A DNA stretch of 64,000 nt from contig NZ_AMGO01000021.1 in the NCBI RefSeq assembly GCF_000299575.1, forward strand, positions 62,001 to 126,000. Reading direction: 5' to 3'. This document shows positions 359-29,097 of the stretch, piece by piece; positions within the stretch are counted from its first letter, which is position 1; each line of letters begins with the position of its first letter. The position numbers were made by a program, and so were the translations under genes. Under the pieces are notes generated by a model that had not been told where the DNA came from, did not search any database, and saw nothing but the letters and a program-made list of their open reading frames with translations. The DNA is from Oceaniovalibus guishaninsula JLT2003. GTDB lineage: Bacteria; Pseudomonadota; Alphaproteobacteria; Rhodobacterales; Rhodobacteraceae.

Positions 359-555
359 TTCAGCGGATCCTCCTCGCCGGGCAGCAGGACGCCGCCGCGG
401 ATCTGATCGAAGCTGTCGGTCTCGCCCAAGGACTCGACCTTGACGACGGTCAGGCCGAAGATGATCGCGATGAAGCCGACCAGCACAAGCCCCACGCCGA
501 CATTGCGCGACCGGCGGCTGCGATGCAGCGCGTGTTCGGTGCGGATGGCCATCAC
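355..555 (-). CDS. Small single-span membrane protein of the cta operon (CoxF-like)
   Basis: A 66-residue protein with a basic N-terminus rich in Arg/His, one membrane segment at about residues 18-38, and an acidic tail. The position between ctaB and ctaG is the one occupied in related alphaproteobacteria by a short cytochrome oxidase accessory protein, so a role in aa3 oxidase biogenesis is inferred from context only. Translation can start at a GTG (555) that overlaps the ctaB stop, or at the ATG directly after it (552). Its own stop overlaps the ctaG start. No catalytic or metal-binding motif is visible. Confidence 0.75.
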   Translation of the reverse strand: MMAIRTEHALHRSRRSRNVGVGLVLVGFIAIIFGLTVVKVESLGETDSFDQIRGGVLLPGEEDPLK

Positions 556-1475
556 ACGATCCCCGCCGCCCGCAGCGCGGCATCGCCCAGAAGCGCGCCG
601 AAATGCAGGAAAAGATAAAGAAGCGAAAATCGGAAGAACGCCCTTTCGACGGCGAAATTATCGGCTTCGGCCATATCCTCGTCACGCCGGAAGATCGTCC
701 AGGCGCCCTTGAGGAACCACAGGTTCATTGCCACGGCCACCGCCAGATAGACCGGTCCCGCAACGGATGTCGTCGCCAGACCCAGCGCGAAAACCGCCAG
801 AACCGCCGTATAGGCCAGGATATGCCGCCGCGTCGTCCGGCGGCCATGCGTGACCGTCAGCATCGGCACGCCGGCATCGTCGTAATCGGACCGCATGAAC
901 AGCGCCAGCGCCCAGAAATGCGGTGGCGTCCACAGGAAGATCAGCGCGAACATCAGGACCGATTCGATCCCGATGGATCCGGTGGCCGCCGCCCAGCCGA
1001 TCATCGGGGGGAAGGCCCCCGCCGCGCCGCCGATGACGATGTTCTGCGGCGTCGACCGCTTCAGCCACATCGAATAGACGACGGCATAGAAGAAGATGGT
1101 GAATGCCAGCAGCCCCGCCGCCAGCCAGTTGGTCGCAAGCCCCAGCATGACGACCGCAAAGCCCGACAGCGCGATTCCGATGGCCAGCGCCTCGTCGCCC
1201 GCGACCCGCCCCGAAGGCACCGGACGGCGGCGCGTGCGGCGCATCACGGCGTCGATATCGGCATCCCACCACATGTTCAGCGCGCCGGAGGCCCCGCCGC
1301 CGACCGCGATGAACAGGATCGCGCAGAAGCCCACGAAGGGATGCAGATCGACGGGCGCGACCAGCAGGCCGACCAGCGCCGTGAAGACGACCAGCGACAT
1401 GACGCGCGGCTTGAGCAGGGCGAAGTAATCGCCGAACTGCGCCTCGTATGGCCGGTCTGCGCTGATATCCGTCAT
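552..1475 (-). CDS. ctaB: Protoheme IX farnesyltransferase (heme O synthase)
   Basis: Converts heme B to heme O by adding a farnesyl group, which is needed for the heme A of aa3 oxidase. The 307-residue length is normal. The polytopic membrane protein carries the UbiA-family polyprenyl diphosphate site NMWWDADIDAVMRRT near residue 80 and the second loop SDYDDAGVPML. It lies 21 bases downstream of ctaC and overlaps the next small gene by four bases, so the group is one operon. The N-terminal ADRPYEAQFGDYFALLKPRV stretch is standard for alphaproteobacterial CtaB. Confidence 0.96.
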   Translation of the reverse strand: MTDISADRPYEAQFGDYFALLKPRVMSLVVFTALVGLLVAPVDLHPFVGFCAILFIAVGGGASGALNMWWDADIDAVMRRTRRRPVPSGRVAGDEALAIGIALSGFAVVMLGLATNWLAAGLLAFTIFFYAVVYSMWLKRSTPQNIVIGGAAGAFPPMIGWAAATGSIGIESVLMFALIFLWTPPHFWALALFMRSDYDDAGVPMLTVTHGRRTTRRHILAYTAVLAVFALGLATTSVAGPVYLAVAVAMNLWFLKGAWTIFRRDEDMAEADNFAVERAFFRFSLLYLFLHFGALLGDAALRAAGIV

Positions 1476-1496: not shown

Positions 1497-2405
1497 TCAT
1501 TCGACAAGGGCGGCTGTCTGCGCCTCGGGGCGGGTGCCGCCGTATTCTTCGATCGCGCGGTCCAGCCAGGCTTCGTACTCCGCCTCGCTGACGACCTTGA
1601 CGGTGATCGGCATGAAGGCGTGGGCGATTCCGCACAGCTCGGAACATTGGCCGAAATAGATGCCTTCCTCCTCGGCGTTGAACCAAAGCTCGGCCAGGCG
1701 ACCCGGCACGCCGTCCTGCTTCACGCCGAAGGCGGGGATCGTCCACGAATGGATCACGTCCGCGCCCGTCACCTGAACGACGATGTTCTTGCCCACGGGA
1801 ACGACCATCGCGGTGTCGGTCGCCAGCCTGAATTCGTCCTCTGTATAGCCGGCCTGCTGAAGTTGCAGGACCACCTCGGGCGTCAGACGGTAATCGCCGC
1901 CGGTCGCGGGCGATCCGATCATGTAGCTGTCGAAGTTGAACTCGTAATCGGGGTATTCGTAGTTCCAGTACCACTGGAAACCCGTGGTCTTGATGGTGAT
2001 GTCGCCCTCGGGGATCGTCTGTTCCTCGAACAGGACGGGAAGCGAGAAGGCCCCGATAAAGATCAGGATCACGATCGGCCCGATCGTCCAGGTGATTTCC
2101 ACCGGTGTGTTGTGCGTGAAGGTCCGGGGCGTCGGGTTGCGACGGTGGTTGTAGCGTACCAGCACAACGCCCAGCAGGCCGATCACCAGCAGCGTGATGG
2201 CCGTGATGATGATCAGCACCATCCCGTCCAGCCATTGCAGATCATGCGCGATATCGCTCGATGCCGGCTGAAAGTCGATGCCGGCGGGCTTGGGCGCGCC
2301 GATGATCGGCAGATCGCCGCGAATGTTGTCGGTATCCTGCGCATGGGCGGCAATGGCTGCGAAAAACCATGCGGCGGCTGCGACGGGAAGACGGGAAAGG
2401 CGCAT
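1497..2405 (-). CDS. ctaC: Cytochrome c oxidase subunit II
   Basis: Subunit II of aa3 cytochrome c oxidase, which takes electrons from cytochrome c through CuA. I chose ATG at 2405 rather than an upstream in-frame start because AGGAC stands at the right distance and it opens directly into a signal peptide (MRLSRLP, hydrophobic core, AHA-QD). Two membrane helices follow ([19 protein letters not shown] and the segment around [15 protein letters not shown]), then the [10 protein letters not shown] aromatic loop and the CuA site [13 protein letters not shown] with both cysteines, the histidine and the methionine. It is the first gene of the cta operon and diverges from tldD. Confidence 0.97.
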
Positions 2406-2474
2406 CGGCTTGTCCTGTTCGGCTGTAACGGGCGGCACGCAAGCCTGATGGGGCCGACATTGTGCTCGCGCAAC

Positions 2475-2489
2475 TTAAAACCATATTAA
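2475..2489. promoter_or_regulatory. Exact TTAA-N7-TTAA CtrA-type site between ctaC and tldD
   Basis: TTAA at 2475-2478 and TTAA at 2486-2489 with exactly seven bases between match the full palindromic CtrA recognition sequence of alphaproteobacteria. The site is almost equidistant from the two divergent starts (69 bases to ctaC, 70 to tldD), so the sequence does not show which gene it serves. Function is inferred. AT-rich intergenic DNA makes a chance match more likely than in coding DNA. Confidence 0.5.
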
Positions 2490-2559
2490 ACGCAACGGGA
2501 CAAGCGGCCCCATCGCGGCATCTGGCCGCGAGCCTGTCCGCCCATGCAGGAGATTCCCC

Positions 2560-3984
2560 ATGACCGACAGTGCCTTTCGTCCGTTCGAGACGGCCTTCGA
2601 TGCAGACGCTGCGCTGCGGCAGTTGCGAACCGCTCTGGCCGGCGCCGAGGATGGAGAGATCTTTTGCGAACGCCGCCGCGCCGAAGGCCTGACCTATGAT
2701 GACGGTCGGCTTCGATCCGCGTCCTATGACGCGTCCGAGGGATTCGGCCTGCGCGCCGTCAAGGGCGAGACGACCGGATATGCCCATTCCACCGAAATGA
2801 CCGAAGCGGCGCTCGGCCGCGCCGTCGAGACGGCGCGCCTGGCGGTGGGCGATGGCGGCGGCACGCTGGCGGTCGGGCCGAAGGCGACGAACCGGCGTCT
2901 TTATACCGACAGCGATCCGGTCGCGGGCGCGCCCTTCGCGGTCAAGCTGGACATGCTGAAAGAGATCGACGCCTTCGCCCGCGCCCTCGACCCGCGGGTG
3001 GTGCAGGTTTCCGCGACGCTGGCGGCATCGCTGCAAGAGGTCGAAATCCTGCGTCCCGATGGGCGCATCCTGCGCGACGTCCGGCCGATGACTCGCCTCA
3101 ATATCGGCATCATCGTCGAGGAGAACGGGCGTCGCGAATCGGGCGGCATGGGCGGCGGCGGGCGTGCGGGGCTGGCCGCGCTGATGGAACGGTCGCACTG
3201 GGAAGCCGTCGCGCGCGAGGCGCTACGCATCGCGCTGGTCAACCTGCGCGCCGAACCCGCCCCGGCCGGGGTGATGGATGTCGTGCTGGGCGCCGGCTGG
3301 CCCGGCATCCTGCTGCACGAGGCGGTGGGGCACGGGCTGGAAGGCGACTTAAACCGCAAGCGGTCCAGCGCGTTCGCCGGACTGATGGGACAGCGGGTCG
3401 CGGCACCGGGGGTCACGGTTCTGGACGACGGCACCATCCCCGACCGGCGCGGATCTCTCAGCATCGACGACGAGGGCACCCCTTCGGCCCGCAACGTGCT
3501 GATCGAGGACGGCATCCTTGTCGGCTTCATGCAGGATCGCCAGAATGCCCGGCTGATGGGGGTCGAGCCGACGGGGAACGGCAGGCGGCAGTCCCATGCC
3601 CACGCGCCGATGCCGCGGATGACGAACACCTACATGCTGGGCGGCGATGCCGACCCCGAAGTGATCGTCGCGGACCTGAAGGACGGTATCTATGCGGTGG
3701 GGTTCGGCGGCGGTCAGGTGGACATCACCAGCGGAAAGTTCGTCTTTTCCTGCACCGAGGCGTATCGCGTCCGAAACGGCAGGATCGGCGCGCCGGTCAA
3801 GGGCGCCACGCTGATCGGCGACGGGGCCACCGCGTTGCAGAAGATCAGGGCCATCGGCAACGACATGACGCTCGACCCTGGCATCGGAAACTGCGGCAAG
3901 GCGGGGCAATGGGTGCCGGTCGGGGTCGGACAGCCGACGCTAATGATCGGCGGGCTGACGGTCGGCGGCGCGGCGACGGGGTGA
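2560..3984 (+). CDS. tldD: Metalloprotease TldD
   Basis: TldD-type subunit of the TldD/TldE zinc protease, known elsewhere for processing small peptides such as microcin precursors and CcdA. At 474 residues it has normal length. The HExxxH zinc site is intact (HEAVGHGLEGD, His253-Glu254-His258), and a C-terminal SCTEAYRVRNG segment provides the conserved cysteine. No tldE partner lies in the window. It diverges from the cta operon across a 154-base spacer holding a CtrA-type site, and an AGGAGA Shine-Dalgarno precedes the ATG. Confidence 0.95.
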   Translation: MTDSAFRPFETAFDADAALRQLRTALAGAEDGEIFCERRRAEGLTYDDGRLRSASYDASEGFGLRAVKGETTGYAHSTEMTEAALGRAVETARLAVGDGGGTLAVGPKATNRRLYTDSDPVAGAPFAVKLDMLKEIDAFARALDPRVVQVSATLAASLQEVEILRPDGRILRDVRPMTRLNIGIIVEENGRRESGGMGGGGRAGLAALMERSHWEAVAREALRIALVNLRAEPAPAGVMDVVLGAGWPGILLHEAVGHGLEGDLNRKRSSAFAGLMGQRVAAPGVTVLDDGTIPDRRGSLSIDDEGTPSARNVLIEDGILVGFMQDRQNARLMGVEPTGNGRRQSHAHAPMPRMTNTYMLGGDADPEVIVADLKDGIYAVGFGGGQVDITSGKFVFSCTEAYRVRNGRIGAPVKGATLIGDGATALQKIRAIGNDMTLDPGIGNCGKAGQWVPVGVGQPTLMIGGLTVGGAATG

Positions 3985-9470: not shown

Positions 9471-10307
9471 TCACCCGTTGAACGCGGTCCTTTGCACGAA
9501 GACGCAGCCGTCGCTGACCAGCATCGGTTGCGTCAGGCACAGGCCGCGGGCGACGCCGAAAGCGGCCATCACCTTGGGCACGTAATCGCGCGTTTCTGCA
9601 TAGGGCGGAACGCCGCCATGCCGCCGCACCGTACCCTCGCCGGCATTATAGGCCGCAAGGACAAGGACGGGATCGCCCGCGAACTCGTCCATCAACCAAT
9701 CCAGATAGGCCACTCCGCCCCGGATGTTCTGGGCCGCGGCAAAGCTGTCCGTCACCCCGAAGCGGGCGGCGGTCGCGGGCATCAACTGCATCAGGCCCTG
9801 CGCCCCCGCGCTGCTGACCGCACCGGCCTGGCCCGCCGATTCGACCGACAGCACCGCCAGCGCCAGCGCCGGTGAAACCCGCGTGCCGATTGTCGCCGCC
9901 AGGATGTCGCGCCCGTGCCGGTCGGCCAGACCGGCCAGCGTTTCCAGCCGGGGGGCGCGCACGGTGGCGTCGGCGCGCAAGGCGGCCAGCGCCAGATCCA
10001 GCCCCCCCGCCCCGCTTCCCGATACCGGCACGTTGTCCCAGAACTGTCCGCCCGCGGCAACGGCGCCTGCGGCAGGATGTTCCGTCGGCGCCGGTGCGGC
10101 GGGCAGCGCGGGCGGCGCTTCGATCTGCACGGTGATTCGCCGCGCGCCGGGCACCGGCGGCTTGACCCGCTTGAAGGTGAAATCCCCGAAGGGCTGCGCG
10201 TCGCCGGCTAGAACGGGCATCGGCAGCAGGCATAGCCACGCCAGCGCGCAGACGGCGTAAAGGATCGCCCGTCTGCGGCGCGATTGGGGGATTCTGGGCA
10301 TGGTCAT
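9471..10307 (-). CDS. Secreted lytic transglycosylase (SLT domain)
   Basis: Peptidoglycan-cleaving lytic transglycosylase of the SLT family. A signal peptide (RRRRAILYAVCALAWLCLL, cleavage near VLAGDA) is followed by a Pro/Ala-rich linker and the C-terminal catalytic domain with the catalytic Glu in LSVESAGQ, then SSAGAQGLMQLMPATA and LAAYNAGEG. About 278 residues from ATG 10307. It stands divergent from the Tad pilus genes; a wall-opening enzyme next to an envelope-spanning pilus is suggestive, but the shared location is the only evidence. Confidence 0.88.
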   Translation of the reverse strand: MTMPRIPQSRRRRAILYAVCALAWLCLLPMPVLAGDAQPFGDFTFKRVKPPVPGARRITVQIEAPPALPAAPAPTEHPAAGAVAAGGQFWDNVPVSGSGAGGLDLALAALRADATVRAPRLETLAGLADRHGRDILAATIGTRVSPALALAVLSVESAGQAGAVSSAGAQGLMQLMPATAARFGVTDSFAAAQNIRGGVAYLDWLMDEFAGDPVLVLAAYNAGEGTVRRHGGVPPYAETRDYVPKVMAAFGVARGLCLTQPMLVSDGCVFVQRTAFNG

Positions 10308-20645: not shown

Positions 20646-20732
20646 CTTCATTGCCCTATGGACGCAATTTCGCCTTGATCGTCGGGCACGATGTCTTCGA
20701 TCCGGCACCTCGGCCGCGTGGAAAGACAGGTC

Positions 20733-22040
20733 ATGTCCATCGAAACCGGTAACGTCCTTGCCCCGCCCGTCCCCCGCTCGCTGAGCGCGATGCGGCTGCC
20801 GCAGGTGATGATGCGGGACATTTTGCTGAAGACGATCTTTCGCAGCAACGCGGCGCATCTGTCGCAGATCGCGCAGCAGATTTGCCTGCCGGTCCAGGTC
20901 ACGCAGGAACTGATCGACCTCGCGCGCAGCCAAAAGCTGGTCGAGGCCACCGGCACCATGCATGCCACGGCATCGTCCGAAATGGGCTATCAGCTGAGCG
21001 AGGCGGGAAAAGCGCGGGCGCTCGATGCGCTGGCGCAGTCCGAGTATTACGGGCCGATGCCGGTCCCGCTGGACGTCTACCGCGAACAGGTGGCGCGGCA
21101 ATCCATCCGCAACATCGCCCTGACGCGCGAACAGTTGGTTCGCGCGATGGGGCATCTGGTGTTGCCGTCCAGCCTGCTGGACAATCTGGGACCGGCGGTC
21201 GGGTCCGGCCGCTCGATCCTGATGTACGGGCCGCCTGGGAACGGCAAATCGTCGATCTCGAACGGTATCCGGGATGCGCTGGGGGATCGCATCTATGTGC
21301 CCAGGGCGATCGAGTATTCGGGGCAGGTCATCACCGTCTACGATCCCATCGTGCATTCCGCAGCACAGGTGGCGCTTGACGATCCGAACGCCTTGCGCCG
21401 CACGGCGCGGTTCGACACGCGCTATGTGCTTTGCGACAGGCCGACGGTCATCACCGGGGGCGAGCTGACGCTGGGAATGCTGGATCTGGTCTATAATCCT
21501 TCCGCCAGAACCTATCAGGCACCGCTGCAACTGAAGGCGACCGGCGGCGTCTTCATCGTCGACGACCTTGGCCGTCAGGTCGATCCGCCTCAGGCGCTGG
21601 TCAACCGCTGGATCGTTCCGCTTGAAGAATCGCGCGACATCCTCGCCTTGCAATCGGGCGAAAAGTTCGAAGTGCCGTTCGACACGCTGGTCGTCTTTTC
21701 CACGAATTTCCACCCCAACCGCATCTTCGACAAGGCCGCCCTGCGCCGCATCTTCTACAAAATCCGCATCGACGGCCCTTCGCAGGAAGATTTTTTGAAG
21801 ATTTTCGCTATGGTCGCGGAAAAGAAGGGGCTGGCGCTGGACGAAGATGCGCTCGTCCACCTTATCGGAACCAAATATCCGCAGATCGGAAACGTATATG
21901 CCAATTACCAACCGGCTTTCCTGATCGACCAGATCCTGGCGATCTGCGCGTTCGAAGGCATCCCCAACCGAATGTGCCGCGATCTAATCGACCGCGCCTG
22001 GGCCAACATGTTCGTCGAGGAGTCGGAAGTCGCGCATTAG
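20733..22040 (+). CDS. AAA+ ATPase with N-terminal winged-helix-like region, role unknown
   Basis: A 435-residue predicted cytoplasmic ATPase. The first ~90 residues look like a helix-turn-helix module (LKTIFRSNAAHLSQIAQQIC, VTQELIDLARSQKLVEATG, then MGYQLSEAGKARAL). The ATPase core has Walker A GPPGNGKSS near residue 165 and Walker B GGVFIVDDLGRQVDPPQ, and the sensor region reads LVVFSTNFHPNRIFDKAALR. ATG 20733 has GGAAAG upstream; ATG 20691 is an alternative. It follows the Tad cluster on the same strand after 87 bases. I do not recognise a characterised family member; a link to pilus regulation is inference from position. Confidence 0.8.
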   Translation: MSIETGNVLAPPVPRSLSAMRLPQVMMRDILLKTIFRSNAAHLSQIAQQICLPVQVTQELIDLARSQKLVEATGTMHATASSEMGYQLSEAGKARALDALAQSEYYGPMPVPLDVYREQVARQSIRNIALTREQLVRAMGHLVLPSSLLDNLGPAVGSGRSILMYGPPGNGKSSISNGIRDALGDRIYVPRAIEYSGQVITVYDPIVHSAAQVALDDPNALRRTARFDTRYVLCDRPTVITGGELTLGMLDLVYNPSARTYQAPLQLKATGGVFIVDDLGRQVDPPQALVNRWIVPLEESRDILALQSGEKFEVPFDTLVVFSTNFHPNRIFDKAALRRIFYKIRIDGPSQEDFLKIFAMVAEKKGLALDEDALVHLIGTKYPQIGNVYANYQPAFLIDQILAICAFEGIPNRMCRDLIDRAWANMFVEESEVAH

Positions 22041-24566: not shown

Positions 24567-25249
24567 ACCCCGGCTTCCTTTTTCAGGGCGAACGCCTTTT
24601 CCTGCTGCCGTCGGGTGCCTTGTGGTGGCCCGGCGCCGCAACGCTGATCTTTGCCGACCTGCATCTGGGCAAGGCCGAACGCATGGCGCGCAGGGGCGGG
24701 GCCGTTCTGCCCCCCTACGAAGTGCACGATACCTTGCGGCGGATGGAGGCGGATATCGCACTCACTGCCCCCCGCCTGGTGATCTGCCTGGGCGATTCGC
24801 TGGACGACGACGCCGCGATTGCCGGACTTTCGCCGTCCGAAGCCCAAAGACTGCGCGACCTGACCCTTCGGATCGACTGGATCTGGATCGCGGGCAACCA
24901 CGACCCTGCCCCGTCGGGTCTGGGCGGGCGTTCCGCAGACGCGGCAAGCATCGGCCCGCTGACCTTCCGCCACATCGCGACACCCGATGCTTCGGGCGAG
25001 GTGAGCGGCCATTATCACCCCAAGGCGCGGCTGGCGCTGCGGGGCCGGTCGGTCAGCCGCCCCTGTCTGCTGCATGACCGCGATCGGGTCATCCTGCCTG
25101 CCTATGGAACGTATACCGGCGGGCTGGACTGGACGGCCCCGGTGCTGGCAGGGCTGTTTCCGACAGGCGGCTGCGCGATCCTAACCGGCCCGACGCCCCA
25201 TGCGGTTCCCATCCCATGCACGTCCCGGTCGCGGCGGGCATCGGCATGA
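24563..25249 (+). CDS. pdeM: Ligase-associated phosphoesterase/endonuclease PdeM
   Basis: Calcineurin-like metallophosphoesterase of the ligase-associated DNA repair cassette, 228 residues. Metal-binding motifs are in order: DLHLGKAE near residue 33, CLGDSLDDD, WIAGNHDPAP and GHYHPKARL. It overlaps the Lhr-type helicase by four bases and the thioesterase by four bases, so the three form one transcription unit. Function in DNA repair is inferred from the cassette; the activity is known only as a phosphoesterase/nuclease fold. The last 15 residues are basic and not conserved by eye. Confidence 0.9.
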   Translation: MNPGFLFQGERLFLLPSGALWWPGAATLIFADLHLGKAERMARRGGAVLPPYEVHDTLRRMEADIALTAPRLVICLGDSLDDDAAIAGLSPSEAQRLRDLTLRIDWIWIAGNHDPAPSGLGGRSADAASIGPLTFRHIATPDASGEVSGHYHPKARLALRGRSVSRPCLLHDRDRVILPAYGTYTGGLDWTAPVLAGLFPTGGCAILTGPTPHAVPIPCTSRSRRASA

Positions 25250-25659
25250 CGCCCGAAAAGCGGGCACAGATCCGGGACAGCTTCGCGCGTCAGGGATTGA
25301 TGGCGACGCTGGGCGCGACCTTGGACGACCTCGAACCGGGACAGGCCACGATCGCGGCCCCCATCACGGACCGATCCAGCCAGCAGCACGGGTTCGCCCA
25401 TGCCGGTCTGGTCTTCGCCATCGGCGATTCGGCAGCGGGCTATGCGGCGATGACGCTGACCGGCCCCGCAGCCGAGGTTCTGACTGCCGAGATGAAGATC
25501 AACCTTCTACGCCCCTCGCAGGGGGAATCGTTGATCGCGTTCGGCCGGGTGCTGAAACCCGGTCGCAGGCTGATCGTCGTGGTGTCCGAAGTATGGGCGC
25601 TGACCGGCGGCGACAGGGTGCATGTCGCGCAGTTGCAGGGCACCATCGTTCCGGTCTGA
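25246..25659 (+). CDS. PaaI-type hotdog-fold thioesterase
   Basis: Predicted acyl-CoA thioesterase of 137 residues. The hotdog core is seen in QHGFAHAGLVFAIGDSAAGYAAM (the HxG segment and the helix with Asp) and LTAEMKINLLRPSQGE followed by GRVLKPGRRLIVVVSEVWAL. ATG 25246 overlaps the pdeM stop (ATGA) and is preferred over ATG 25216. It is the last gene of the unit. Substrate unknown; there is no functional link to DNA repair beyond co-transcription. Confidence 0.85.
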   Translation: MTPEKRAQIRDSFARQGLMATLGATLDDLEPGQATIAAPITDRSSQQHGFAHAGLVFAIGDSAAGYAAMTLTGPAAEVLTAEMKINLLRPSQGESLIAFGRVLKPGRRLIVVVSEVWALTGGDRVHVAQLQGTIVPV

Positions 25660-25667
25660 AAACAAGA

Positions 25668-25699
25668 ACGCCGCGTCCGGGGAAAGTCGGACGCGGCGT
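25668..25699 (-). terminator. Strong Rho-independent terminator, T-run on the minus strand
   Basis: A 12-bp perfect stem, ACGCCGCGTCCG (25668-25679) pairing with CGGACGCGGCGT (25688-25699), loop of 8. On the minus strand the stem is followed by TTCTTGTTTT, so it ends transcription from the micro-ORF at 25722-25796. It lies nine bases behind the thioesterase stop and may also stop the plus-strand unit, though the plus side lacks a T-run. Confidence 0.85.
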
Positions 25700-25721
25700 C
25701 GATGTGGTCTGGCAGGCAGCG

Positions 25722-25796
25722 CTAGATGAGGGCCAGCGCCGCAAGTCCCAGACCGGTAAGCAATCCGGCGTGAATGGCGAGGGTCACGTTCAGCAT
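25722..25796 (-). CDS. 24-residue hydrophobic micro-protein
   Basis: A small open frame of 25 codons with the full outfit of a gene: AGGTGGAGAG Shine-Dalgarno ending four bases before ATG, TAG stop, then 22 bases to a 12-bp-stem terminator with a T-run on the same strand. The product begins MLNVTLAIHAGLLTG and continues as an uninterrupted hydrophobic helix with no charged residue except a possible His, so a single membrane span. A TTGACC -35-like hexamer (25872-25877, minus) lies upstream. I do not recognise a family. It could be a membrane micro-protein, a type I toxin-like peptide, or a leader of an RNA; nothing in the sequence chooses between these. Confidence 0.6.
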   Translation of the reverse strand: MLNVTLAIHAGLLTGLGLAALALI

Positions 25797-25922
25797 CGTT
25801 CTCTCCACCTGTTGTTGTCGGGCCAACACGGCATCGTCCCAATTCGTTCCATCACGGTCGGTTGAGGCTGCGGTCAAACCCGTTTAGCTGGTCGGCGCAT
25901 GGCGTTCGGAAAAAACGGTGAC

Positions 25923-27599
25923 ATGACCTACAGATCGGACATCGAGATTGCCCGCGCCGCGATCCCCCTGCCGATCGGGCAGATCGGAACCCGGTTGGGA
26001 ATCGATCCCGACGACTTGATCCCCTATGGCCGCGACAAGGCCAAGATCTCCCGCTCGTTCATCGACACCTTGTCCGGGCGCCCCGATGGCAAGCTGGTCC
26101 TGGTCACGGCGATCAGCCCGACGCCGGCCGGCGAGGGCAAGACCACCACGACGGTCGGCCTCGGCGACGGCCTGAACGCTATCGGCCGGCGCGCCGCCAT
26201 CTGCATCCGCGAAGCGTCGCTCGGCCCCTGCTTCGGATCGAAGGGCGGCGCGGCCGGCGGCGGGATGGCGCAGGTGATCCCGATGGAGGATATGAACCTT
26301 CACTTCACCGGCGATTTCCACGCGATCACCAGCGCGCACAACTTGCTGTCGGCGATGATCGACAATCACGTCTATTGGGGCAATCGGCTGGATATCGACC
26401 TGCGCCGCACGACATGGCGGCGGGCGATGGACATGAACGACCGCGCCTTGCGCCAGGTCACGGCGGGTCTGGGCGGCGTTCCGAACGGTTTTCCGGCACA
26501 GACCGGCTTCGACATCACCGTCGCGTCCGAGGTGATGGCCTGTCTCTGTCTGGCCGATTCGCTCGGCGATCTGCGCCAGCGGCTTGGGCGCATCATCGTC
26601 GGCTATTCCCGCGACCGTCGGGCGATCACCGCCGCCGACCTGAAGGCCAGCGGCGCGATGACCGTCCTGCTGCGCGACGCGATGCAGCCCAATCTTGTGC
26701 AGACCATCGAACACAGCCCGGCCTTCGTGCATGGCGGCCCGTTCGCCAACATCGCGCATGGCTGCAATTCGGTCATCGCCACCCGCACGGCGCTGAAACT
26801 GGCCGATTATGTCGTGACCGAAGCGGGGTTCGGCGCGGATCTGGGCGCCGAGAAGTTCATGGACATCAAGTGCCGCAAGGCCGGGCTTGCCCCGTCCTGC
26901 ATCGTTCTGGTGGCCACGATCCGCGCGTTGAAGATGGGGGGCGGCGTTTCCCGTTCGGAACTGGGCAGGGAAGACGCCGCCGCCGTGCAACGCGGCTGCG
27001 CCAACCTTGTGCGCCATGTCGAGAATCTGCGCGCCTTCGGACCGCCGGTCATCGTGGCGATCAACCATTTCGCCGGCGATACCGACGCCGAGATCGCCGT
27101 CGTGCAGGACGAAGCCGCCGCCTTGGAATGCGAGGCGATCCTTTGCCGCCATTGGGCCGAGGGCAGCGCCGGCATAGCCGATCTGGCCAGGCGGGTCGTG
27201 GCGCTGTCCGAAGGCGATCCGCCTGCGCTGCGGCTTCTCTATCCCGACGATCTGCCGCTTGCCGCCAAGATCGAAACCATCGCCACCCAGGTTTATCGCG
27301 CGGGCGAGGTCACGTTCGCCCCCGGCCTGCGCGAACAACTGGCACGCTGGGAGGAGGCGGGTTTCGGCCACCTGCCGATCTGCATGGCGAAAACCCAGTA
27401 TTCCTTTTCGACCGATCCCGACCTGCGCGGCGCACCGCAGGGCCACACCGTCCCGGTGCGCGAGGTGCGGCTGGCGGCGGGCGCGGGCTTCGTCGTCGCC
27501 ATCTGTGGCGACATCATGACAATGCCCGGCCTGCCCCGGATCCCCGCCGCCGAGACGATCGGACTGGACGCCGCGGGCCGGATCGAAGGTCTGTTCTGA
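25923..27599 (+). CDS. fhs: Formate--tetrahydrofolate ligase
   Basis: ATP-dependent formation of 10-formyltetrahydrofolate from formate. 558 residues, the normal family length, from ATG 25923 ([12 protein letters not shown] is the usual N-terminus); ATG 25899 would add eight residues. The P-loop reads [20 protein letters not shown] near residue 65, followed by [19 protein letters not shown] and later [17 protein letters not shown]. It is followed after 11 bases by folD, so the one-carbon pair is one operon. Neither candidate start has a strong Shine-Dalgarno. Confidence 0.97.
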
Positions 27600-27610
27600 A
27601 AGAGGATCCG

Positions 27611-28492
27611 ATGGCTGCAATTCTCCTCGACGGTCGCGCCCATGCGTCGCGCCTGCGCGACCGCATCGCGCGGCAGGTGACGGCGTTGGCGGATGGGCAC
27701 GGCATCGCGCCGGGGCTGGCCGTGGTGCTGGTGGGCGAGGACCCCGCCAGCCAGGTCTATGTCCACTCCAAGGGGCGCCTGACGCGAGAGGTCGGGATGC
27801 GCTCGTTCCAGCATCGCCTGCCCGCCGATACCGACAGCCATACCCTGCTGAACCTGATCGCATCCCTGAACGCCGACCCGGACGTTCACGGCATCCTTGT
27901 GCAACTGCCGCTGCCGTCGCATCTGGATGCGGCGGCGATCATCGACGCCATCGACCCGGCAAAGGACGTGGACGGGTTTCATGTGCAGAATGCCGGGCGG
28001 CTTGCTGTCGGATTGGACGCGATGGTGCCCTGCACGCCGCTGGGCTGCATGATGATCCTGCGCGATCACCTGGGATCGTTGGCAGGGGCGAACGCCGTGG
28101 TGCTGGGACGGTCGAACATCGTCGGCAAACCGATGGCCCAACTTCTGTTGGCGGCCGATTGCACTGTGACAACGGCCCATTCGCGGACCCGCGACATTGC
28201 CGATATCGCACGGCAGGCCGATATCCTGGTCGCCGCCATCGGCCGGCCGGGCATCGTCACGGCGGACTGGATCAAGCCGGGCGCAACGGTGATCGACGTC
28301 GGCATCAACCGGATCTCGGACGACGAAGGAAAGACGGTCCTGGTCGGGGATTGCGCGCCCGAATGCGCATCGGTCGCGGGCGCGATCACGCCCGTTCCGG
28401 GCGGCGTCGGCCCGATGACCATCGCCTGTCTGCTGCAAAACACGGTCACGGCCTGTTGCCGGATCGCCGGCATCCCGGTTCCCGCAGTCTAA
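27611..28492 (+). CDS. folD: Bifunctional methylenetetrahydrofolate dehydrogenase/cyclohydrolase
   Basis: Interconverts 5,10-methylene- and 10-formyl-tetrahydrofolate using NADP. 293 residues from ATG 27611 with AGAGGA upstream. Catalytic-site segment [18 protein letters not shown] with its lysine, [24 protein letters not shown], the nucleotide-binding [16 protein letters not shown] and [16 protein letters not shown] are all present. It is second in the fhs-folD operon and shares four bases (CTAA) with the stop of the convergent MOSC gene. Confidence 0.97.
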
Positions 28493-29097
28493 AGCGGGGC
28501 TTGCCGCTTGGCGGGGATGCCCTGCCAAGCCCGCTGATCGGGAACGTGCAACCGCAGATCGTCGCCGATCGCAATGGTGCCCGGACGCTCGACCCAGGCC
28601 GTCACGCCCCGCCGCCCCTTGGCCGCTGCCTGAAACAGCTTTCCGGCCTCACCGACGGCTTCCACAATCGTAAGTGCGGGCAGATGACAGGGCCGGTTCT
28701 GCATGTCGACCACCAGCGTCACGCCATCCGGCCCCTGAAGGCGCGAAGACGGCGGCAGATGCGAAAAATCCGGCAGACCCTCGACGACGACCGAGGCGCC
28801 CAGCCACGCCGGGTCCAGATCGGACAGGCCCATCGCTTCGGCGATTTCCGCCAACTCCTCGGCCGAGAGGATCGAGATTTGCCGCACATTGGCAATCTCG
28901 GTTCCCTTGGGATGCTGCGCGACGACCCGACTGCACGACGGCCGCGTGCGCCCGCCATGCACCTCGCCCTCCATCCCGCCGAAACCCAGCGGCATCATCT
29001 GCACGGCCAGGCCATCGACGGCCTTGCGATCCCGATGCGGAACGCGTCCCAGCCACGTGACCTTGCCCACCAGGTCGGTTGGTTCGAGTGCCGCCAT
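28489..29097 (-). CDS. MOSC domain protein
   Basis: A 202-residue protein with a MOSC (MoCo sulfurase C-terminal) domain, the fold that handles sulfur carried to molybdenum cofactor. The conserved cysteine is in MQNRPCHLP near residue 137. [20 protein letters not shown] and [18 protein letters not shown] fit the family core. It converges on folD with overlapping stops. The minus-strand terminator of ftsH lies between its start and ftsH, so it is probably transcribed alone. Substrate is unknown. Confidence 0.85.

Follow-up and report, generated by a model that had tools for sequence, protein, structure and literature searches.

The window, that is, the whole stretch of 64,000 nucleotides that was analysed, harbors a micro-gene of 24 sense codons on its minus strand, situated between a thioesterase gene and fhs. 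The features of the locus, in window positions, are as follows.

25722..25796, minus strand: coding sequence of the micro-gene (TAG included), 24 sense codons, peptide MLNVTLAIHAGLLTGLGLAALALI
25801..25810, minus strand: Shine-Dalgarno region AGGTGGAGAG, read from the window sequence
25825..25850, minus strand: predicted EcfG-type promoter GGAAC-N18-GTT, beginning 54 nt 5' of the ATG, from motif search and comparison
25657..25700, minus strand: intrinsic-terminator-like hairpin with T-rich tail CTTGTTTTCA, read from the window sequence
25216..25659, plus strand: convergent neighbour, hotdog-fold (4HBT) thioesterase gene (PF03061, 6.7e-11)
25923..27599, plus strand: divergent neighbour fhs, formate-tetrahydrofolate ligase (PF01268, 1.9e-258)
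from 27611, plus strand: folD (PF02882/PF00763)
28489-29097, minus strand: MOSC gene, which follows folD in the window
plus strand, on the convergent side: ligase-associated helicase gene (TIGR04121)
plus strand, on the convergent side: pdeM (TIGR04123)

The ATG of the micro-gene stands at 25796, the coding part covers 25725-25796 and the TAG 25724-25722, all on the minus strand. The peptide is predicted from its sequence to form one uncharged transmembrane (TM) helix with the arrangement G11-x3-G15-x3-A19. On the same strand, the -35 element of the putative promoter is found at 25850-25846 and its -10 GTT at 25827-25825, while the hairpin, with 13 pairs and an 8-nt loop, occupies 25700-25667. 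A preliminary description of this DNA had reported a Shine-Dalgarno (SD) sequence, ATG, 24 sense codons, TAG, hairpin and T-run, and each of these is present at its site; the orientation it gave, divergent from fhs-folD and convergent with the pdeM unit, also matches that of the neighbours (PF01268, TIGR04123). The unit it delimited, 25668-25810, does span the region from SD to terminator but leaves out the promoter at 25850-25825, and its account of the architecture, sound in the elements it named, overlooked the EcfG-type promoter and the link to general stress. The convergent thioesterase gene scores above the cut-off of TIGR00369 and below that of the PaaI model TIGR02286. At some distance, positions 20691-22037 (plus strand) hold an ORF of 449 aa that Pfam does not match at 1e-5 and that NCBIfam models match only below their cut-offs (IteA-like ATPase, 27 bits).

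In the window, 29 in-frame codons 5' of the ATG are free of stops, and a longer version from a TTG exists; the ATG is taken as the start because both the SD and the alignment described below support it. The window contains 182 ATG-initiated ORFs of 20-30 aa. Two of them reach a GRAVY of at least 1.5 and two are preceded by a strong SD; the micro-gene alone combines both traits, in keeping with the earlier view that chance was an unlikely source of the arrangement.

A tblastn search with the window peptide finds matches in the same genus, and eight of the nine loci that were opened, all except L016, contain an SD-preceded ORF whose length is exactly 24 codons. Within the genus, 12 of 14 genomes carry the micro-gene: a seven-member profile recovered nine full-length copies and a weaker one in G004, and two further copies, in G002 and G005, were found purely by position, each as a 23-codon membrane ORF convergent with the thioesterase gene. 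In G009 the place next to the thioesterase gene is taken by a MOSC gene and no copy is present there; G010 was checked by profile only. The wider distribution is patchy: at least 15 carriers were found in a sample of 394 genomes that represents the window's family by roughly one genome per genus. A profile survey of the order gave matches at E 0.01 or better in 27 of 292 genomes, a number that includes seven unopened loci, namely G437, G454, G457 and G522 together with G203, G425 and G440, the last three of which were taken as chance since they are partial matches inside open frames no shorter than 203 aa.

Forty members of 23-28 aa could be aligned, 39 from genomes of the window's family and one from a named MAG (L070). 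Columns 5-26 of the alignment are free of gaps and hold the core I-[HYN]-x-G-x3-G-x2-L-[AG], whose residues are kept as I in 38 members, H/Y/N in 38, the first G in 37, the second G (column 17) in all 40, L in 35 and A/G in 38. GxxxG occurs in 37 of the 40 and the more general small-xxx-G-xxx-small in 39. An almost uncharged membrane helix had been proposed from the window peptide, and the family bears this out: the peptides are hydrophobic (GRAVY 1.5 to 2.2 among the scored ATG ORFs), no member contains D or E, and a single K/R, at positions 2-5, is found in nine. All are shorter than 50 aa and have one hydrophobic helix that is predicted to insert into a membrane. A purine-rich, SD-like 4-mer precedes all 40, under a loose criterion applied without a control. 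G007 and G013 encode the identical peptide.

A 26-aa hydrophobic ORF in G228 (L166/L313), MKAAAVVFYASFATTMIVAAGLISAL, deserves separate mention. It lies on the minus strand about 254 nt before fhs, has an SD and a GGAAC-N18-GTT at -98, and scores 6 bits with the HMM, being too divergent for the profile. It may possibly be a remote member of the family by its sequence, and was kept out of the 40 as unproven although it was among the first 18 promoter regions considered below.

Coding potential was assessed in 12 members of 24 codons, nine from the genus and three from outside. Over their 66 pairs, pN/pS is 0.44 in frame as against 0.96 and 1.68 in the shifted frames, and differing sites amount to 0.39, 0.23 and 0.63 at codon positions 1, 2 and 3; since nearly all members were found by protein similarity, the pN/pS value is biased downward. 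Among near pairs, G013/G007 has a pS of 0.12 with a pN of 0, and G006/G011 has 0.46 and 0.07. The ORF diverges more slowly than its flanks in five of the seven pairs compared. Thus G003/G008 identity is 0.64 in the CDS, 0.20 in the 5' 30 nt and 0.18 in the 3' 60 nt, and for G591/CG17 the corresponding values are 0.85, 0.80 and 0.28, whereas the near-identical pairs G013/G007 and G222/G559 show little contrast between CDS and flanks. An in-frame stop lies 3-5 codons 5' of the ATG in six of the 40 members, which fixes the start in these. In 12 of the 40, more than 60 open codons precede the ATG, and the longest of these upstream frames (G006, G007, G013) are antisense to another gene.

The comparison of members shows the micro-gene to be a conserved reading frame of 23-28 codons under purifying selection. 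The preliminary description had held it to be a real 24-codon protein gene and proposed tBLASTn with synonymous/non-synonymous analysis as a check; this gave matches in the genus and, among members, mainly third-position and synonymous change, and the conserved frame, the amino-acid motif and the pN/pS value all support that reading. It had also reasoned that a hairpin conserved without the frame would point to a small RNA or a terminator only. The reverse is seen, in that frame, length and motif are kept, whereas leader and hairpin sequences diverge outside the nearest pairs.

Upstream of the family, a promoter motif recurs. In regions of 120 nt, GGA[AC]C-N16-18-GTT is found 5' of 26 of the 40 members, at -51 to -93, as against none of 40 on the opposite strand, none of 40 in the 120 nt farther upstream, and a mean of 0.36 (maximum 4) in mononucleotide shuffles. 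Of the 18 regions first scored, of 110 nt, 12 have the motif, as against an average of 0.34 in dinucleotide shuffles, which never exceeded 2; outside this first scored set the motif recurs in 15 of 23 members. Eight of the 12 members in the window's genus have it at -52 to -55. Within the 64-kb window the motif occurs twice, with 2.13 occurrences expected, and is hence no rarer than chance, so that the case for the promoter rests on the comparison among genomes. The second window occurrence, GGAAC-N17-GTT at 10059-10083 (minus strand), may be a chance one.

The form of the motif is that of the general stress sigma factor. In the accessible text on Sphingomonas melonis the EcfG consensus is given as GGAAC-N17-20-GTT (PMC6599016), which the window promoter at -54 fits, and that on Caulobacter describes sigma-T promoters of GGAAC and CGTT form (PMC5869019). 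GGAAC may also be read by other ECF sigma factors, and the match of G005, at -90, may be due to chance. The strict motif is missing from seven of the 33 members whose genomes encode NepR (G012, G001, G002, G257, G244, G180 and G308); the first three, which belong to the window's genus, have near-matches by eye.

The genes for the anti-sigma factor NepR, an EcfG-like sigma factor and PhyR stand together in the window's genome: the NepR gene (PF18557, 2.9e-14) is followed by an EcfG-like ECF sigma gene, whose nearest PDB chain is 5uxx (5.9e-50), and is faced by a PhyR gene (PF22029, PF22233, PF00072). NepR (PF18557) occurs in all 14 genus genomes, and GGAAC-N17/18-GTT precedes nepR in all 14 as well, ten of these promoters being found directly and four with an assumed nepR start placed farther downstream. 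The sequence upstream of nepR (L216-L229) is near-palindromic, with GGAAC..GTT readable both ways in 13 of the 14 and the opposite strand of L224 lacking it. In 57 further genomes NepR was found in 21 of 27 micro-gene carriers and in 16 of 30 other family genomes. Of 39 carriers, 33 have NepR and 26 of these also have the promoter site, as against none of the six that lack NepR (Fisher p 0.0005 by genome); counted by genus the numbers are ten of 14 against none of three, which is borderline (Fisher p 0.05). This association, together with the motif counts, strongly supports transcription of the micro-gene from an EcfG-type promoter, and the micro-gene is predicted to be a member of the EcfG regulon.

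The NepR-negative carriers, four of genus g210 together with G279 and G152, keep the gene without the promoter site, and so provide a natural control. Their retention of the gene implies that the peptide is useful without control through this site, as would be expected if it served a respiratory or transport complex as an accessory single-TM subunit and stress control were secondary. CydX and AcrZ are parallels for such a subunit, and a small-xxx-G-xxx-small face would suit docking on a partner. The patchy presence of the family argues against a part in a core complex, however, the identified neighbours (fhs, folD, MOSC, thioesterase, pdeM) encode no membrane complexes, and no PDB sequence matched the family profile; a subunit role is accordingly rather improbable, if still worth keeping in mind.

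Carriers without an EcfG site (L231, L315, L317, L323, L236 and L070) share another feature, a common block like ATCCGCCAATTC..GTTTCCGAT in the intergenic region between fhs and the micro-gene, about 85-110 nt 5' of the micro-gene start. It is possibly a regulator site of fhs.

The micro-gene is probably monocistronic. Of the 40 members, 21 have a T-tailed hairpin of -8 kcal/mol or better downstream, nine of them among the 12 of the genus, where shuffling repeated five times gave 3-8 of 40; terminators were scored by folding, as a perfect-stem scan overlooks mismatched stems. From the distance between the -10 element and the ATG the leader would be about 20 nt in the genus; the promoter sites of other genera, at -69 to -93, imply a longer one. 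A scan for sigma-70-type promoters, which bears on a cis antisense RNA and is blind to other promoter types, found none on either strand over 25000-26300.

An EcfG-type promoter followed by a terminator would also delimit a compact transcript, of the kind made for a stress-induced small RNA in which the ORF is incidental or secondary. GsrN, a sigma-T-dependent sRNA of Caulobacter, is a parallel. Promoters of the GGAAC/CGTT sigma-T form have been sought in that organism, as the accessible part of the source relates (PMC5869019), and the 231-nt region folds better than its shuffles (z -4.07), in good part by virtue of the terminator. Against this stand the preservation of amino acids and frame while leader and 3' sequences diverge, and negative Rfam searches, run on the window with gathering cut-offs and on the locus with E <= 1. 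A DNA-level search of 60 relatives likewise recovered the complete sequence from no genome but the window's and otherwise gave short matches, the family being visible at the protein level only. A small RNA as the principal product thus seems very unlikely.

In every opened member with an adjoining fhs the micro-gene is divergent from it, as would be expected if it were a functional partner of fhs-folD in one-carbon metabolism. A survey of ORFs in the 500 nt upstream of fhs (90 regions) yielded four clear members of 30 bits or more on the opposite strand, three already in the profile and one, G023, new; the next score was 6 bits, and same-strand ORFs reached 2.1 bits at most. The survey left out three known carriers, G152, G180 and G219, as well as G093, whose fhs is at a contig edge, and counted G023, G228, G238, G258 and G311 twice. 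Among 80 named fhs loci, each with as much upstream DNA as was available, the micro-gene was found only in L070, a Rhodobacteraceae MAG.

Five genus genomes (G003, G005, G006, G008 and G012) nevertheless carry the micro-gene with no fhs match. Three of them, G003, G005 and G008, have a MOSC gene immediately 5' of the micro-gene and oriented alike, the arrangement that excision of fhs-folD from between the two would leave; G001 and G002 show it as well, with fhs located elsewhere. Because the micro-gene outlives fhs, persisting after its loss, an fhs-linked function was rejected, and a partnership with fhs-folD must be regarded as the most improbable of the explanations weighed here. The five genus loci whose MOSC gene and micro-gene have no fhs-folD between them are L009, L013, L049, L174 and L177. 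In L011 (G006), where neither fhs nor the thioesterase gene is matched, the micro-gene is flanked by a pdeM-like gene (522-1193, plus strand, named by eye) and a gene reading away (1879-3072, plus strand). A link to the thioesterase is weakened too, as 29 thioesterase loci outside the genus, searched with a filter for hydrophobicity plus SD, yielded no family member.

Searches of 25 members against Pfam and NCBIfam produced no accepted match. Weak single-member matches to PF24191 (E 0.29) and to DUF5957, DUF543, MtrF and the NCBIfam MtrF (E 0.02-0.09) were rejected as chance. In the literature, the titles and opening parts of abstracts among the matches listed name no such gene. Single-TM small proteins as such are already known, but by its sequence the micro-gene founds a new small-protein family. 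ORFs as short as this are commonly omitted from annotation, and with no Pfam or NCBIfam model to recognize it such a family is easily missed.

Taken together, the sequence evidence makes it likely that the micro-gene is a monocistronic, EcfG-induced gene for a single-TM peptide acting on the inner membrane or on a membrane partner. In general or membrane stress, PhyR would release EcfG from NepR and the micro-gene would be transcribed, so that, given an EcfG-type promoter, the peptide would be made when PhyR frees EcfG. Ordinary SD-driven translation and intrinsic termination would follow. The peptide would insert into the inner membrane in an N-in/C-out orientation, which we infer because the only basic residues of the family are at positions 2-5, and its small-xxx-G-xxx-small face may allow it to self-associate or to pack on a partner helix. 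Under stress it might then adjust the membrane or one membrane protein, by analogy with YohP of E. coli. More tentatively, and as one possibility among several, the glycine-zipper family may be a dedicated general-stress membrane effector, made under EcfG upon envelope stress and directly tuning membrane potential, fluidity, or a single sensor or transporter. In Rhodobacter sphaeroides, PhyR is described in the accessible part of the source as having a role in membrane stress (PMC5830050); by analogy this fits the stress reading and proves nothing here, and a dedicated effector, if it is one, would give a molecular handle on that role. A 24-residue helix driven by a stress promoter and kept at one place would also be a minimal, testable case of a bare helix as a stress effector.

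The same length, hydrophobicity and stress promoter would agree with a type I toxin-like peptide that depolarises the membrane and slows growth under stress. TisB is a parallel for such a peptide, and TimP, from what is accessible of its description, another (PMC7667032). On the partial texts available, YohP lowers membrane potential (PMC12719787) and a glycine-zipper toxin that depolarises membranes exists (PMC12744356). The leader predicted for the genus, however, would be too short to be a structured one. Structured leaders are usual in type I systems. In addition, each matched genome had a single full-length copy in the genus profile search and in the 292-genome order survey, no plasmid was matched by tblastn with either of two member queries, and the micro-gene is kept at one place. 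A toxin is for these reasons an unlikely identity.

The EcfG (PhyR-NepR) regulon of the Alphaproteobacteria, in the accessible account of it (PMC6599016), has promoters of the same form as that of the micro-gene, whose presence goes with that of NepR. Membership of the micro-gene in this regulon is a prediction from sequence. MgtS, KdpF and CydX are short single-TM proteins that act on larger membrane proteins. AcrZ, according to the part of the source available, is likewise a short single TM helix, acting on AcrB (PMC7267776). The micro-gene peptide resembles this class in having one short TM helix and differs in that its family has no accepted match in Pfam, NCBIfam or PDB. TisB and Ibs are short, hydrophobic type I toxin peptides under stress control. 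The peptide is similarly short and hydrophobic with predicted stress control, but its predicted leader is short, the genus peptides are uncharged and each genome has one full-length match. The closest parallel in kind may be YohP of E. coli, a stress-induced protein of 27 aa that, in the accessible text, dimerizes through a glycine motif and lowers membrane potential (PMC12719787). It belongs to another clade, is under other control and is mainly N-out/C-in, as far as that text goes, whereas the micro-gene peptide is predicted to be N-in/C-out; what the two have in common, as a likeness of kind, is a single TM helix, about the same size, and up-regulation under stress, observed in the one and predicted in the other.
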